NCBI GenBank assembly: GCA_018239675.1
Contig: JAFEGX010000117.1
Span: forward strand, 1-51,391
From: Verrucomicrobiota bacterium
Lineage (GTDB): Bacteria > Verrucomicrobiota > Verrucomicrobiia > Opitutales > Opitutaceae
DNA: 51,391 nucleotides
Direction: 5' to 3'
Made by a program: the position numbers and the translations under genes. Shown piece after piece: positions 4,103 to 42,440 of this stretch. Within the stretch, counting starts at the first letter, position 1. Every line of letters starts with the position of its first letter. The notes beneath the pieces are model-generated. The model had not been told where the DNA came from and did no database searches. It worked only from the letters and a program-made list of their open reading frames with translations.

Positions 4103-6025
<1,923 letters not shown>

Positions 6026-6026
6026 G

Positions 6027-6528
6027 CCCATGGTCGAGATGGCGAGGAGTCGAGCAGTCGAGCATTCGGCGAAGCCGCGGTTTCGCTTTGAGAAGCTTAC
6101 AGTCTGGCAATCAGGCCGGCGGCTCTCCTCGGAGGTTTATTCGAAGACCCAGGATTTCCCGAATGACGAACGGTTCGGCCTGACCGGTCAGCTTCGCCGG
6201 GCCGCGGTTTCCGTGGCGGCGAATATCGCGGAAGGCAGTGGGCGGAACTCAGACGCCGATTTTGCTCACTTTCTGGAGATGGCCTACGGCTCTGCCATGG
6301 AGGTGGCGGCCTTGCTTTATGTCGCCAGTGACACGGTCAGGCTCGACTCGTCGGTGCGTGACAACCTGCTCGACATGACGGCCGAGGTCACCGCCCAACT
6401 CACGGCGTTGAACCGTTCACTCAAGGTCGCGCACACCAAGACGCCGTTCTCGCGCACGTCAGTGCATTAGTCGCCGGCCAAAATCGACTCCTCGACCCTC
6501 GTCATTCTCGACTCACATATCCCATGGT
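6027..6528 (+). mobile_element. IVS-like insertion between sdhA and sdhB with terminal inverted repeats
   Basis: The four-helix-bundle gene is bracketed by an imperfect inverted repeat of 29 nt: 6033-6061 (opening gtcgaga, ending agtcga) against 6484-6512. The arms differ by two mismatches and two 1-nt gaps. An 8-bp direct repeat, cccatggt, lies at 6027-6034 and 6521-6528 and looks like a target duplication. The duplicated 8 bp contain the start codon of both the inserted gene and sdhB. The layout resembles 23S rRNA intervening sequences, which carry the same protein family between long inverted repeats, but here it sits in a protein-coding operon. No transposase is present. Confidence 0.7.
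6030..6470 (+). CDS. Four-helix-bundle protein, S23/IVP family (23S rRNA intervening-sequence protein family)
   Basis: 146 aa. Family hallmarks are [14 protein letters not shown] at the start of the domain, then [19 protein letters not shown] and a helix around [14 protein letters not shown]. The family (TIGR02436 type) forms a small four-helix bundle, is commonly encoded in 23S rRNA intervening sequences, and is related to the Avd protein of diversity-generating retroelements. Its biochemical role is unclear. The first ~10 codons run through the left inverted repeat, so either ATG 6030 or ATG 6039 could be used. Base composition looks less GC-rich than sdhA and sdhB, suggesting later acquisition. 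It should be co-transcribed with sdh. Confidence 0.88.
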
Positions 6529-7336
6529 TGCCGATAATTCTTCCAAGTCTCTCAGCGTGACGCTCCGCGTGTGGCGGCAGGCGGGTCCGGCGGCGCCGGG
6601 CCGCTTCGTTGATTACCCGGCCCGCAACCTGAACTCGAACATGTCGTTCCTGGAGATGCTCGACGTCGTGAACGACGAGCTCACCAAGCAGGGCGAGGAA
6701 CCGATCGCGTTCGCGCACGATTGCCGCGAGGGCATCTGCGGCACGTGCTCCTGCACGATCAATGGCAAGCCGCACGGTCCCGGCCACGGCATCGCCACCT
6801 GCCAGACGTACCTGCGCAGCTTCAAGGATGGCGACGTGATCGTGGTCGAGCCGTTTCGGGCCCGCGCCTTTCCGCTGGTCAAGGATCTCGTGGTCGATCG
6901 CTCGGCATTCGACCAGATCATCCAGGCCGGTGGCTTTATCAGCGTGCGCACGGGCGCCGCGCCGGACGCCAATTCGATTCCGGTGCCGAAGCCCGATGCG
7001 GACCTCGCGATGGACGCTGCGGCCTGCATCGGCTGCGGCGCGTGCGTCGCCGCGTGCAAGAACGCCTCCGCGATGCTCTTCGTCGCGGCCAAGGTCTCGC
7101 AGCTCGGGCTGCTCCCGCAGGGCCAGCCGGAGCGCGACCAGCGCGTGCTCGCGATGGTCGGCAAGATGGACGAACTCGGCTTCGGCAACTGCACGAACCA
7201 GTACGAGTGCAGCGCGGCCTGCCCGAAGTCCATCAGCCACGACTTCATCGCGCGGATGAACCGCGACTACCTGAAGGCCAGCCTGCGCAGTGCCCTCAAG
7301 CCGACGTCCAACGCGTCAGGCGGCGGGGCAGGATAA
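6524..7336 (+). CDS. sdhB: Succinate dehydrogenase iron-sulfur subunit
   Basis: 270 aa. The N-terminal ferredoxin-like domain carries the [2Fe-2S] ligands C67, C72, C75 and C93 (CREGICGTC...ATC). The C-terminal domain has [11 protein letters not shown] (C168, C171, C174, C178) plus C223, C229 and C233 for the [4Fe-4S] and [3Fe-4S] clusters. It links SdhA to the heme subunit SdhC. It starts 53 nt after the inserted four-helix-bundle gene, and no Shine-Dalgarno is visible before ATG. In a normal operon it would directly follow sdhA. Confidence 0.97.
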
Positions 7337-7704
7337 CCTCCTGCGCGGCGTACCTCATTCGCTGCGTTGCAGCTTCGGAGGTCGGAGGGCGGGGCTCGCA
7401 GCTCGGAGTTCGGCTGGGCGCGATTGGTCTCGCTTGGACTGGGCGGGACACAGAACTCACTGAGGATGTACGGTGCTCACAGCGCCAATCCTGCTTGAAT
7501 CGGTCCGCGTAGTGGACCAGTTGCCTTGCTCGGTGTTCTCGGTGCCTCCGCGCTGTCCTCCGTGACGCGCCGGGAAATCGTGAGGCGTAGGACCGAGTTC
7601 GGCTGGCGCAACCTCCTGGGGCAGGGCGCTTTTTCGCGTCTGTTCATTTTCGTGTAACTTTCCCGACGGTGCCGGGTTTTCAGGTCATCAAACCTTACAA
7701 GACC
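7337..7704. other. Gene-free stretch after sdhB
   Basis: 368 nt with no convincing gene and no clear terminator for sdhB. The middle part (about 7440-7570) contains cacagaactcactgagg and, inverted and diverged, ctcggtgttctcggtg. This is a remnant of a GC-poorer dispersed-repeat type common between genes here. Confidence 0.5.
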
Positions 7705-11479: not shown

Positions 11480-11595
11480 ACCGAGGCGAACGCCGAAAGT
11501 CGGACGCCGAACGCCGAACGCCGAACGCTCAACGCTCAACGTTGAGCGTTGCATATGTCCGTCGCCGTCCGAGGTTCGGCGTTCGCCCCGGTATT
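11480..11595. repeat. Palindromic intergenic repeat (gccgaac/gctcaac units)
   Basis: Short units gccgaac and gctcaac are repeated nearly in tandem and then mirrored. The centre is a perfect 22-nt palindrome at 11530-11551, and outer blocks cgaacgccgaa and ttcggcgttcg mirror each other. It separates gpsA from the MFS gene and is one of several similar elements in the window. Confidence 0.75.
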
Positions 11596-26113: not shown

Positions 26114-26260
26114 CCCGCAGCCGAAGGCTGTGGGTCGAAAGTCGAAGGTCTCACGTCGAACGTCGCAGGCCGGCCGCCGGCCACGGGTCGACCGGACCTC
26201 AGTCCTTCGAACTTCGACCTGTCACCTTCGACGCAGATAACCTGGCACCTGCTCCCTGCG
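26114..26260. repeat. Palindromic intergenic repeat (gtcgaag units) with hairpin
   Basis: Directly after the kinase stop codon a hairpin forms: cccgcagcc (26114-26122) with ggctgtggg (26126-26134). It is followed by repeated gtcgaaagtcgaaggt-type units, mirrored further on by cttcgaacttcgacc and ccttcgacg. It has no T tract but could help end the kinase transcript. Confidence 0.6.
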
Positions 26261-30944: not shown

Positions 30945-31077
30945 AGTTGAAGGTTGAAAGTCGACGGTTGAAAGCCGGAGGCGAGCTTTCCTTCGGCGCC
31001 AAGGTCTGGCCTTAGGCCTGAGCCGTTGATGGGGAACTCCCTGTCCGTCTGGGCCTTCAACCTTCAACTTTCAACCG
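30945..31077. repeat. Palindromic intergenic repeat (ttgaagg type)
   Basis: Left arm agttgaaggttgaaagtcgacggttgaaag is mirrored by ccttcaaccttcaactttcaaccgg at 31054-31077. Member of the family also seen near 16.5, 32.9 and 40.4 kb. Confidence 0.75.
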
Positions 31078-31158
31078 GTCCCCCGGCCCCAAGGTCGCCG
31101 AACTGGGGGGTTGCAAACCCGTCGGTTTCCGAGAGTCTGACCGCTCTCCAATCCGACA

Positions 31159-32892: not shown

Positions 32893-32977
32893 ACGGTTGA
32901 AGGCGATCAGTTGAAGGTTGAAAGCGCAGTCGCCCGGCGACCGTCCGGCTTTCAACCTTCAACTGTCAACTTTCAAC
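32893..32977. repeat. Palindromic intergenic repeat (ttgaagg type)
   Basis: ttgaaggttgaaagc (32911-32925) is mirrored by gctttcaaccttcaact (32948-32964), with further ttgaagg and tcaactttcaac units outside. It lies at the 3' side of katG. Confidence 0.75.
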
Positions 32978-33002
32978 GGGCGGCCGCCGCCCCCCCGCCT
33001 CC

Positions 33003-35550
<2,548 letters not shown>

Positions 35551-37017
35551 ATGTCCTTCAAAGTTGCCTTCATTGGCGCCGGTTCGATTGGATTCACCCG
35601 CCGGCTCCTCGCCGATCTCCTGGCGGTGCCCGAATTCGCCGGCATCGACCTCGCCTTCACCGACATCAACGCCCGTAACCTGGCGATGGTCACGGAGCTC
35701 TGCCGCCGCGACATCGCGGCGAACGGCCTGGCCACCCGGATCACGCCGACCACCAACCGCCGCGAGGCGCTGCGCGGCGCGAAGTACGTCTTCTGCGTCG
35801 TCCGCATCGGCGGGCTCGAGGCGTTCGCCCACGACATCGAGATCCCGCTGAAGTACGGCGTCGACCAGTGCGTCGGCGACACGCTCTGCGCCGGCGGCCT
35901 CATGTACGCCCAGCGCGGCATCGCGGCCCTGCTCTCGTTCTGCCGGGACATCCGCGAGGTCGCGGCGCCGGACTGCCTCCTGCTGAACTACGCGAACCCG
36001 ATGGCCATGATGACCTGGGCCGCCAACAAGTACGGCGGCGTGCGCTGCGTCGGCCTGTGCCACGGCGTGCAGCACGGTCACTTCCAGATCGCCCAGATCC
36101 TCGGCCGCAAGAAGGAGGAGGTCGACATCATCTGCGCCGGCATCAACCACCAGACGTGGTACATCGCGGTGAAGACCGACGGCCGCGACCGCACCAAGGA
36201 CCTGCTGGCGGCGTTCGAGCGGCATCCCGTCTACCGCCGCGAGGAGAAGGTGCGCATCGATATGCTGCGGCGCTTCGGCTACTACTCGACCGAGTCCAAC
36301 GGCCACCTCAGCGAGTACGTGCCGTGGTACCGGAAGCGCCCGGACGATATCCTGAACTGGATCGACCTGAGCTCGTGGGGCCTCGGCGAGACTGGCGGCT
36401 ACCTGCGCGTCTGCACCGAGGGCCGCTACTGGTTCGAGGCTGAGTTCGGCGGCAAGAAGGACCATGCGACGCTGAAGTACACCCAGGAAAACCGCAGCGA
36501 GGAGCACGGCAGCCGGATCCTGGAGGCACTGGAGACGGGCCGCGTGTATCGCGGACATTTCAACCTGCCGAACCGCGGGACGATTTCGAACCTGCCGGTC
36601 GATGCGATCGTCGAGGCCCCCGGCTTCGTCGACCGCCATGGCATCAACATGACGCAGGTCGGGGACCTGCCCCTTGGCTGCGCTGCGGTGTGCAACGCCT
36701 CGATCAGCGTCCAGCGCCTCGGCGTCGAGGCCGCGGTCGCGGGCGACGACATGCTGCTGCGGCAGGCATTCTTGATGGATCCCCTGGTCGGCGCCGTCTG
36801 CAACCCGCCCGAGGTCTGGCAGATGGTCGACGAGATGCTGGTTGCGCACGCCCCGTGGCTGCCGCAGTACCGCCGGGCGATCGCCGCCGCCAAGAAGCGC
36901 CTCGCCGCCGGCCCGCGCATCCGCACCAAGGCCAACCGCGGCGCCGCCCGCCGGAAGATCCGCTCACTGGCCGAACTGAAGCGCCTGGAAAAGCAGAACC
37001 CGAGGGCGGGACACTGA
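35551..37017 (+). CDS. Glycoside hydrolase family 4, alpha-galactosidase-like (MelA/AglA type)
   Basis: 488 aa. GH4 enzymes cleave glycosides by an NAD+ and Mn2+ dependent oxidation-elimination mechanism. The N-terminal NAD fold shows FIGAGSIGFTRRLLADLL. The metal-binding Cys and His are in GLCHGVQH and AGINHQTW. CHGVQH rather than CNVP or CNSP motifs points to alpha-galactosidase or galacturonidase-like members. The C-terminus has a basic tail (AGPRIRTKANRGAARRK). Cytoplasmic. A monocistronic start, with katG divergent. The substrate is not proven. Confidence 0.9.
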   Translation: MSFKVAFIGAGSIGFTRRLLADLLAVPEFAGIDLAFTDINARNLAMVTELCRRDIAANGLATRITPTTNRREALRGAKYVFCVVRIGGLEAFAHDIEIPLKYGVDQCVGDTLCAGGLMYAQRGIAALLSFCRDIREVAAPDCLLLNYANPMAMMTWAANKYGGVRCVGLCHGVQHGHFQIAQILGRKKEEVDIICAGINHQTWYIAVKTDGRDRTKDLLAAFERHPVYRREEKVRIDMLRRFGYYSTESNGHLSEYVPWYRKRPDDILNWIDLSSWGLGETGGYLRVCTEGRYWFEAEFGGKKDHATLKYTQENRSEEHGSRILEALETGRVYRGHFNLPNRGTISNLPVDAIVEAPGFVDRHGINMTQVGDLPLGCAAVCNASISVQRLGVEAAVAGDDMLLRQAFLMDPLVGAVCNPPEVWQMVDEMLVAHAPWLPQYRRAIAAAKKRLAAGPRIRTKANRGAARRKIRSLAELKRLEKQNPRAGH

Positions 37018-37182
37018 AATTGCGGATTGCGGATCGCGGATTGCGGATTGCGTCCCAACCGGGCGCAACGCGCCGGTGAGATTCAATTCCGGAATCCGGA
37101 CTCCGAAATCCGGAGCCGAATTCCAGCGGCGCTCCGCGTCCCGCTGGACAAATCCGCAATCCGCGATCCGCGATCCGCAATT
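37018..37182. repeat. Palindromic intergenic repeat (gcggatt units)
   Basis: Directly after the GH4 stop codon, aattgcggattgcggatcgc with further gcggatt units is mirrored by units of aatccgcaatccgcgatcc ending at 37182. The 7-nt unit gcggatt/gcggatc occurs four to five times in each arm. Confidence 0.85.
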
Positions 37183-37226
37183 GAGAGTTGCCTCCCGCGG
37201 GTTTTCGCCGTGCGTTGCGCGCCTGC

Positions 37227-40387: not shown

Positions 40388-40605
40388 GATGAGTTGAAGG
40401 TTGAACGTTGAGAGTTGAAAGCCGGAATCCGGGTCGGATTTTCGCGCCGTCGAATCACGAGTCTTCAACCGGAGTGATCTCCGACCTACCTTCACGTGTG
40501 GGGCGTCGGATGGAGCGCGCGGTCAAACTTCGAACGATGAAAGCCGCATATCCGCGTCCGACCTACTCAACCCTCAACCTTCAACTTTCAACCGGCCGGG
40601 CCTCC
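40388..40605. repeat. Palindromic intergenic repeat (ttgaagg type)
   Basis: gagttgaaggttgaacgttgag with gttgaaagccgg (40390-40425) is mirrored by ctcaaccctcaaccttcaac and tttcaaccgg at 40565-40600. It lies between the rpsR terminator and the Sua5 gene. Confidence 0.75.
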
Positions 40606-42208: not shown

Positions 42209-42240
42209 GGCTTTTTCTTGAGCGTTGGATGGTTTTTTTT

Positions 42241-42440
42241 GGAAACACCAAACGCCAAACCGCCAAACGCTAAACAAAGGGATAAGAGGCTAGGAAGGAT
42301 TAGGGATAGGTGGGTGAACAGGGTAAAAAATACCAGCGTGGGTGCTCTCGGCGGCCTGGCTCGGTCAGCGCCCTTGCACCTTTACCCGCCCCTAGCCGCT
42401 TACCGCTTGTTTGGCGTTTGGCGTTTTCTAATCTCCAAAC
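42241..42440. repeat. Intergenic repeat with gccaaac units in inverted arms
   Basis: accaaacgccaaaccgcc with more such units (42247-42275) is mirrored by gtttggcgtttggcgtttt (42407-42427). An internal agggataagaggctagg block recurs inverted near 43835-43855 next to the same gccaaac units, so a partial second copy lies about 1.5 kb away. Confidence 0.75.

Follow-up and report, generated by a model that had tools for sequence, protein, structure and literature searches.

The sdhA and sdhB genes of this Opitutaceae genome (G000) are separated by an inserted unit at about 6027-6528 of the window, i.e., of the whole stretch of 51,391 nucleotides that was analysed. Upstream lies sdhA (4103..6025, forward strand; Pfam FAD_binding_2 and Succ_DH_flav_C), whose TAA ends at 6025, and downstream lies sdhB (6524..7336, forward strand; Pfam Fer2_3 and 4Fe-4S families). 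Between them stands a forward-strand gene of 146 amino acids (6030..6470) for an IVP or four-helix-bundle protein, which matches TIGR02436 with 108.3 bits (cut-off 24) and PF05635 with 113.3 bits (cut-off 33.8). The TIGR02436 family, annotated as "four helix bundle protein", is common and of unknown function. In Pfam, this gene matches 23S_rRNA_IVP alone, with no tyrosine transposase match, and through alignment A1 the protein is a relative of PDB 2gsc and 2rld. A left arm of tandem GTCGAG-type words at an 8-nt step (6033..6061, forward strand) and its inverted partner, the right arm (6484..6512, forward strand), form the ends of the unit. Both are bordered by a direct repeat, cccatggt, whose left copy (6027..6034) includes the ATG used by the IVP reading frame and whose right copy (6521..6528) includes the start of sdhB.

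The inverted ends are 29 nt long and 72% complementary. When the same geometry was placed at random in the window, 1 of 5000 placements reached their local pairing score of 18.6. Coordinates, domains and this pairing test agree with the earlier note, which had described an IVP gene splitting the sdh operon, its ends inverted and flanked by a direct repeat of 8 bp. The ends had also been expected to pair in RNA, and the predicted fold of 6000-6560 does pair them (z = -2.64, with 1 of 100 shuffles as low). As for the direct repeat, an 8-nt stretch was shared in 26 of 5000 random pairs of segments of that size, so cccatggt is suggestive only. Within the left arm, identity is 0.78 at lag 8 and 0.08 at lag 7, and the spacing of the right arm is mixed. 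The element (L005) is thus atypical in period, with 8 nt instead of the usual 7.

The insertion had been likened to the intervening sequences (IVS) of 23S rRNA, and the likeness holds for the protein family and the inverted ends. In the available part of the source, the Coxiella burnetii 23S IVS resembles the unit in both respects and in its size of about 0.43-0.5 kb (PMC4990558). It also carries three tandem heptamers (GACAGAT) directly upstream of its reading frame, and its protein, S23p, seems not to be made (PMC4990558). The 23S IVS differ, nonetheless, in sitting in an rRNA loop (PMC4990558), whereas the unit has complementary ends but is flanked by two protein genes, in a genome with gene-less arrays of IVP words. 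No rRNA family was found in 5900-6700, where the best match (E 0.81) was an unrelated riboswitch, and no known RNA family could be assigned to the unit. The Avd model gave the IVP protein 12.6 of 80 bits, far under its cut-off, and the defence-system models gave a stray 12.8-bit match only. A phage origin was set aside: one cross-phylum IVP protein (typed from a G121 locus) was compared with 50,697 phage records and matched none of them at E 1e-5.

The sdhA-sdhB junction was compared across the family, in 67 of 69 genomes with an sdhB match (G011 and G035 were left out). It is under 45 nt in 37 of the 67, six of these short gaps being slightly negative since the sdhB start was extrapolated. 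Short junctions of this kind are what the earlier note had predicted for the empty site, TAA-gccc-ATG. Longer junctions without a gene account for 17 of the 67, and an ORF6N-like gene occupies the gap in seven (two by Pfam, the rest by eye). An IVP gene of another lineage with ATTTACG arms is present in four (one by Pfam and NCBIfam, all four by our own profile), and the GTCGAG-type element in two, G000 and G059. On the protein tree, the ATTTACG rows require three changes and the GTCGAG rows two, and the row nearest to G000 (G064; support 90/57, which is not strong) carries the other, non-GTCGAG element. The site is a hotspot of turnover. The ORF6N-like gap genes of other Opitutaceae (L025, L026, L030, L039, L087, L103, L105) are scattered on the tree, with seven changes for seven rows, and palindromes of type GAGGTCACAAATTGTGACCTC were seen by eye upstream of and within their reading frames.

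The orthologous element in G059 has weaker inverted ends, with a score of 12.9, just above the threshold of 12.6, and by eye it has no direct repeat of the cccatggt type. More generally, flanking direct repeats of at least 7 nt were found at 4 of 182 elements, compared with 1.2% of mismatched pairs. These results do not support reading the 8-bp repeat as a target-site duplication, and such duplication was rejected as a rule for IVP elements.

Paired arms are widespread around IVP genes. They were sampled at 244 loci in three sets, which consist of best-scoring matches rather than random ones, are in many cases of common ancestry, and count one locus (L436 = L276) twice. Pairing between the two flanks exceeded the 95th percentile of mismatched flanks at 213 of the 244 loci and the 99th at 166. 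In set 1 (122 Verrucomicrobiota loci; null of 14,762 mismatched flanks, duplicate places removed), 105 loci were above the 95th and 82 above the 99th percentile, against 11 and 2 of 120 for control windows further out. Set 2 comprised 89 loci, 13 of cyanobacterial plasmids and 76 of named genomes from many phyla (the best 80 matches, four dropped). Here, the counts were 77 and 55, against 2 and 0 of 84 in the control. Set 3, with 33 loci from the order of a record titled Lysobacterales and thresholds taken from set 2, gave 31 and 29. The flanks of sdhB, used as a further control, gave 5 and 0 of 67. Rows were dropped in set 1 (L006, L060 and L067, at contig ends), set 2 (L269, L282, L272 and L261) and set 3 (L453). 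In the two main sets, 29 of 211 loci did no better than the 95th percentile. One IVP gene (L290) lies on a contig titled Methanophagales archaeon, possibly through a binning error, and has heptamer-like arms with a score of 16.2, above the 95th percentile only.

Further TIGR02436 genes with terminal repeats, for which a search had been suggested, are indeed present in the genome of the window. G000 has 11 IVP genes with short tandem words in their flanks, inverted about most of them, and the word differs each time. The earlier note had overlooked that the arms are arrays of tandem short words, that the word is specific to the element, and that gene-less arrays occur elsewhere in the genome.

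Period, polarity and placement were determined for the 182 loci whose flank pairing exceeded the 95th percentile. In 147 of them the arms repeat best at lag 7 and in 22 at lag 8, and lag-7 identity was 0.56 and 0.62 in sets 1 and 2, compared with about 0.24-0.33 when lags 7 and 14 are set aside. G exceeds C in the left arm of 163 of the 182. Among loci whose neighbours were called with a simple ORF caller, 144 of 173 left neighbours run in the same direction as the IVP gene and 29 are antisense; on the right, 120 of 170 are co-directional. The left arm starts at a median of 1.5 nt past the stop of the left neighbour, and the right neighbour starts at a median of 4 nt past the right arm.

The word of the arms is element-specific and tracks the identity of the IVP protein. 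Pairs from different genomes were counted as having a common word at a score of at least 16. At protein identities of at least 75%, 82% of 17 pairs had a common word, some of them being orthologues at one site. This share fell to 29% of 84 pairs at 60-75% identity, to 4% of 719 pairs at 50-60%, and to about 1% or less below. Inside one genome, none of 208 IVP pairs had a common word. Moreover, the protein is kept by selection, as pN/pS was 0.07-0.20 in nine ortholog pairs, with synonymous sites saturated in five. The window gene had a value of 0.18 against its G059 orthologue, likewise with saturated synonymous sites.

Arrays of the same kind occur without a gene. The window contains 12 period-7 arrays, compared with 0.35 in block shuffles. 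Three gene-less inverted pairs have words of IVP elements of G000, namely a GCGGATT-type pair at 37011..37196 (L009), a GTTGAAA-type pair at 40390..40603 (L003) and a CCAAACG-type pair at 42240..42431 (L011). Other period-7 arrays of the window lie at 7373-7418 (right after sdhB), 11480-11562, 26119-26192, 31048-31094 and 32927-33003. Between GCGGATT arms, an array of the GGAATCC / GGAGTCC type was seen (window 37077-37125; L361 4652-4701), as if one element were nested in another.

Across 949,943 bases of G000, 75 arrays lie no more than 700 nt from an inverted partner. In a slightly different count, the best word match among 164 IVPs was one of G000's own for 38 of 113 arrays, the expected share being 4.9%. 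The mean best score of the arrays to the genome's own IVPs was 15.39. In contrast, 1000 random sets had a mean of 10.27 and a maximum of 13.58, and other-genus Opitutaceae IVPs (500 sets) reached 10.57, with a maximum of 11.93. The effect rests mainly on the word of L009, which accounts for 24 arrays at a score of at least 16, followed by L003 with 8, L004 with 3, L007 and L011 with 2 each, and L002 with 1. Some array words have no own IVP in G000. These are GTAGCGA, the word of the same-genus IVPs L055 and L057 (13 and 12 arrays), and ATTTACG, the word of L072 (6 arrays). The replicates G072 and G118, with five arrays each and an own IVP as best match in three and two, go in the same direction but are too small.

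The word of the window's own element is tied only weakly to gene-less arrays. None of the 113 period-7 arrays matched it at 16 or above. A gene-less family in G000 (L292-L302, L304, L312-L332) has CTGAGCCGGAATCATGCAG at its outer ends and GTCGA(A/G) words further inside. These are likely its kin, found with a pattern whose total of 35 is little higher than the 24 of the reversed control. This family gave 21 matches to one 153-nt copy, and by eye its left end often coincides with the stop codon of the upstream gene. As for the GCGGATT elements, the spacers are unlike one another (mean score 8.0 and maximum 13.3 in 55 pairs, given without a null). Elements with one word are thus not simple copies of one unit.

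A link with arrays already described comes from Xanthomonas, whose protein XCC0516 (2gsc) is the solved structure nearest to the IVP profile. Intergenic GGGAATC heptamer arrays have been reported in this genus, with 70 and 75 forming close inverted pairs in two genomes, and GGGGA(C/T)T arrays in Nostoc (PMC4692102). The available part of that source treats the Xanthomonas arrays as quadruplex-forming repeats, whose loci it describes as of above-average stability and without a tie to mobile elements (PMC4692102). A text search of the same part found no occurrence of "0516" or "ribosomal protein". The arrays resemble those described here in their intergenic 7-nt words and inverted pairs (PMC4692102); the tie to IVP genes is drawn from six loci found elsewhere. 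These six, the most similar to Xcc0516 (62-74% identity), all have GGGA(A/T)TC arms and, by eye, lie between accB-like and accC-like genes. GGGAWTC arrays were counted in 44 of 151 genomes, overlapping matches included. The six genomes with a GGGA(A/T)TC-armed IVP, which may be kin, had 138-479 matches. The 38 others had 179 in one (G139), at most 16 in six, and none in 31, and the reversed pattern had 0 matches in the 44 genomes. With more than 16 matches in 6 of 6 genomes versus 1 of 38, IVP genes are tied to the Xanthomonas heptamer arrays. The sole IVP gene of G139, however, has a different word, with GGGGACC-type arms. Rescanning eight genomes with no IVP match at the strict limit brought out IVP genes in two of them.

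Taken together, the unit at about 6027-6528 is read as a member of a large class of elements whose IVP protein recognises the word of its own arms and so aids spread or persistence. We put the probability of this reading at roughly 0.55. It builds on observed features: the gene-and-arms architecture and its occurrence in many phyla, a word that is specific to each element and tied to the protein lineage, arms of fixed polarity, purifying selection, turnover at the sdhA-sdhB site and gene-less arrays with IVP words in the same genome. We infer the movement of the elements and the action of the protein from this pattern. The element consists of an IVP gene with inverted arrays of a short degenerate word (usually of 7 nt, here of 8) on both sides, and it sits between one gene's stop and the next gene's start. 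In the proposed scheme, the sdh operon would tolerate the insertion owing to its position in the short intergenic gap. The protein, of which a solved relative is a pentamer (PMC4990558), would bind its own arm word, probably as a hairpin or an ordered array in single-stranded DNA or RNA. Through this recognition, both its own element and the gene-less arrays of the same word would be able to spread or persist, much as REPINs do with a RAYT. Cutting and joining would fall to host enzymes of replication or repair, since the IVP protein resembles no nuclease. Given that target duplication is not general and that spacers differ, the process would not be plain copying of the whole unit, unless spacers decay fast and the arms are kept. 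Several points count against the reading: no movement was observed directly, target duplication and compensatory change between orthologous arms were not seen as a rule, spacers of gene-less elements are unlike, the window's own word is weakly linked to such arrays, the G072 and G118 replicates are small, G139 combines many GGGAWTC matches with an IVP of another word, and 29 of 211 loci stay at or under the 95th percentile. The published stability of the Xanthomonas loci (PMC4692102) and the apparent lack of S23p in Coxiella (PMC4990558) also point the other way.

A classical IVS acting at the RNA level is the foremost alternative, although an unlikely one. The arms would pair in the transcript, RNase III would cut the stem, and the IVP message would be freed from the sdhA-sdhB mRNA. 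The same gene family is found in 23S IVSs that are cut by RNase III (PMC4990558), and both the fold of the region and the mostly co-directional upstream neighbours are in line with such processing. Nevertheless, a helix selected in sense-strand RNA should leave G-T mismatches in excess, and the opposite was observed. The arms have 219 G-T and 279 A-C mismatches (264 and 277 in the mismatched-pair control), with 48 loci having more G-T and 82 more A-C. This speaks against the importance that the earlier note had given to the stem as sense RNA, and selection for a sense-RNA helix in the arms is not supported. If anything, the pattern would fit a helix of the other strand, in DNA or RNA. Furthermore, no compensatory change was seen between orthologous arms, with 3 double compensations against 66 pairing losses in nine ortholog pairs. 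The antisense left neighbours at 29 loci and the gene-less arrays, which need no IVP message, also argue against RNA-level processing.

It is less probable still that another enzyme moves the arrays and that the IVP gene is a passenger. The mover could be a RAYT, a transposase of the IS200 type or, by analogy with Avd of diversity-generating retroelements, a reverse transcriptase, and REP doublets with their RAYTs offer the same picture of inverted short repeats with a linked gene (PMC3116915). The family scan also placed Avd as a distant relative. By Pfam, however, the unit does not encode a tyrosine transposase. Of 33 IVP genomes, 14 have a reverse transcriptase (PF00078), and none was found in G000, G072, G096 or G099; this enzyme was rejected as the mover, being absent from G000 and 19 of the 33. 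That the arrays are prior simple-sequence repeats of the host, with IVP genes landing inside inverted pairs, is the least probable explanation: gene-less inverted arrays are common in the 950 kb of G000, their spacers differ, and some sdhA-sdhB gaps look array-like by eye without a gene (L080, L081, L082, L084), but most junctions are short, the word follows protein identity across genomes, and genes landing either way round in a symmetric pair would not be expected to show a left arm of fixed polarity.

The class has a close counterpart in REPINs and RAYTs. Both comprise short inverted doublets in intergenic DNA, with families per genome and a linked gene (PMC3116915), and in the IVP class, too, the word of the linked gene recurs in the same genome as inverted repeats without a gene, though only weakly so for the window's own GTCGAG word. 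They differ in that the gene here encodes a four-helix-bundle protein rather than a tyrosine transposase, and in that the repeats are arrays of 7-8-nt words. The TAACTGA repeats of Beggiatoaceae are similar as intergenic tandem heptamers, for which a repeat-binding protein has been suggested as the mobile part (PMC4679880). Compared by description, they differ in being mostly direct, with one inverted, and the available part of that source mentions no IVP gene ("S23" and "four helix" are absent; PMC4679880).

On a broader and more tentative reading, to which we give a little less than even odds, IVP proteins may be the dedicated partners of short-word arrays in bacteria, each lineage recognising one 7-8-nt word and keeping up its private inverted arrays, those of its own element as well as gene-less ones. 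This reading covers bacterial phyla and at least one archaeal contig. It would unite the 23S IVS, the Xanthomonas GGGAATC arrays and perhaps the heptamers of cyanobacteria and Beggiatoaceae in one class of mobile or persisting DNA that has no known transposase. To our knowledge, intergenic heptamer arrays have been described in bacteria for years with no partner gene. In the literature, as far as it was covered (incompletely, so that a link may be given elsewhere), no link of IVP, S23 or four-helix-bundle genes to heptamer arrays or to mobile inverted arrays is stated, the Coxiella paper coming nearest. If true, an orphan protein family would gain a ligand, its own word, and the heptamers would gain a cause. 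The 23S rRNA intervening sequences would become one landing site of a general element. Beside REPIN/RAYT, there would be a second, unrelated system of a chromosomal gene with gene-less inverted repeats, with no recognisable transposase. The pattern of one word per lineage makes the claim directly testable.

Cyanobacteria also provided some particular gene settings. On their plasmids, IVP genes were seen within CRISPR operons (L203, L210, L208), in the order cas6-IVP-cas4 twice and cas10-IVP-cmr3-family once, and another annotated cyanobacterial case has its IVP gene between two ribonucleotide reductase genes on the other strand.
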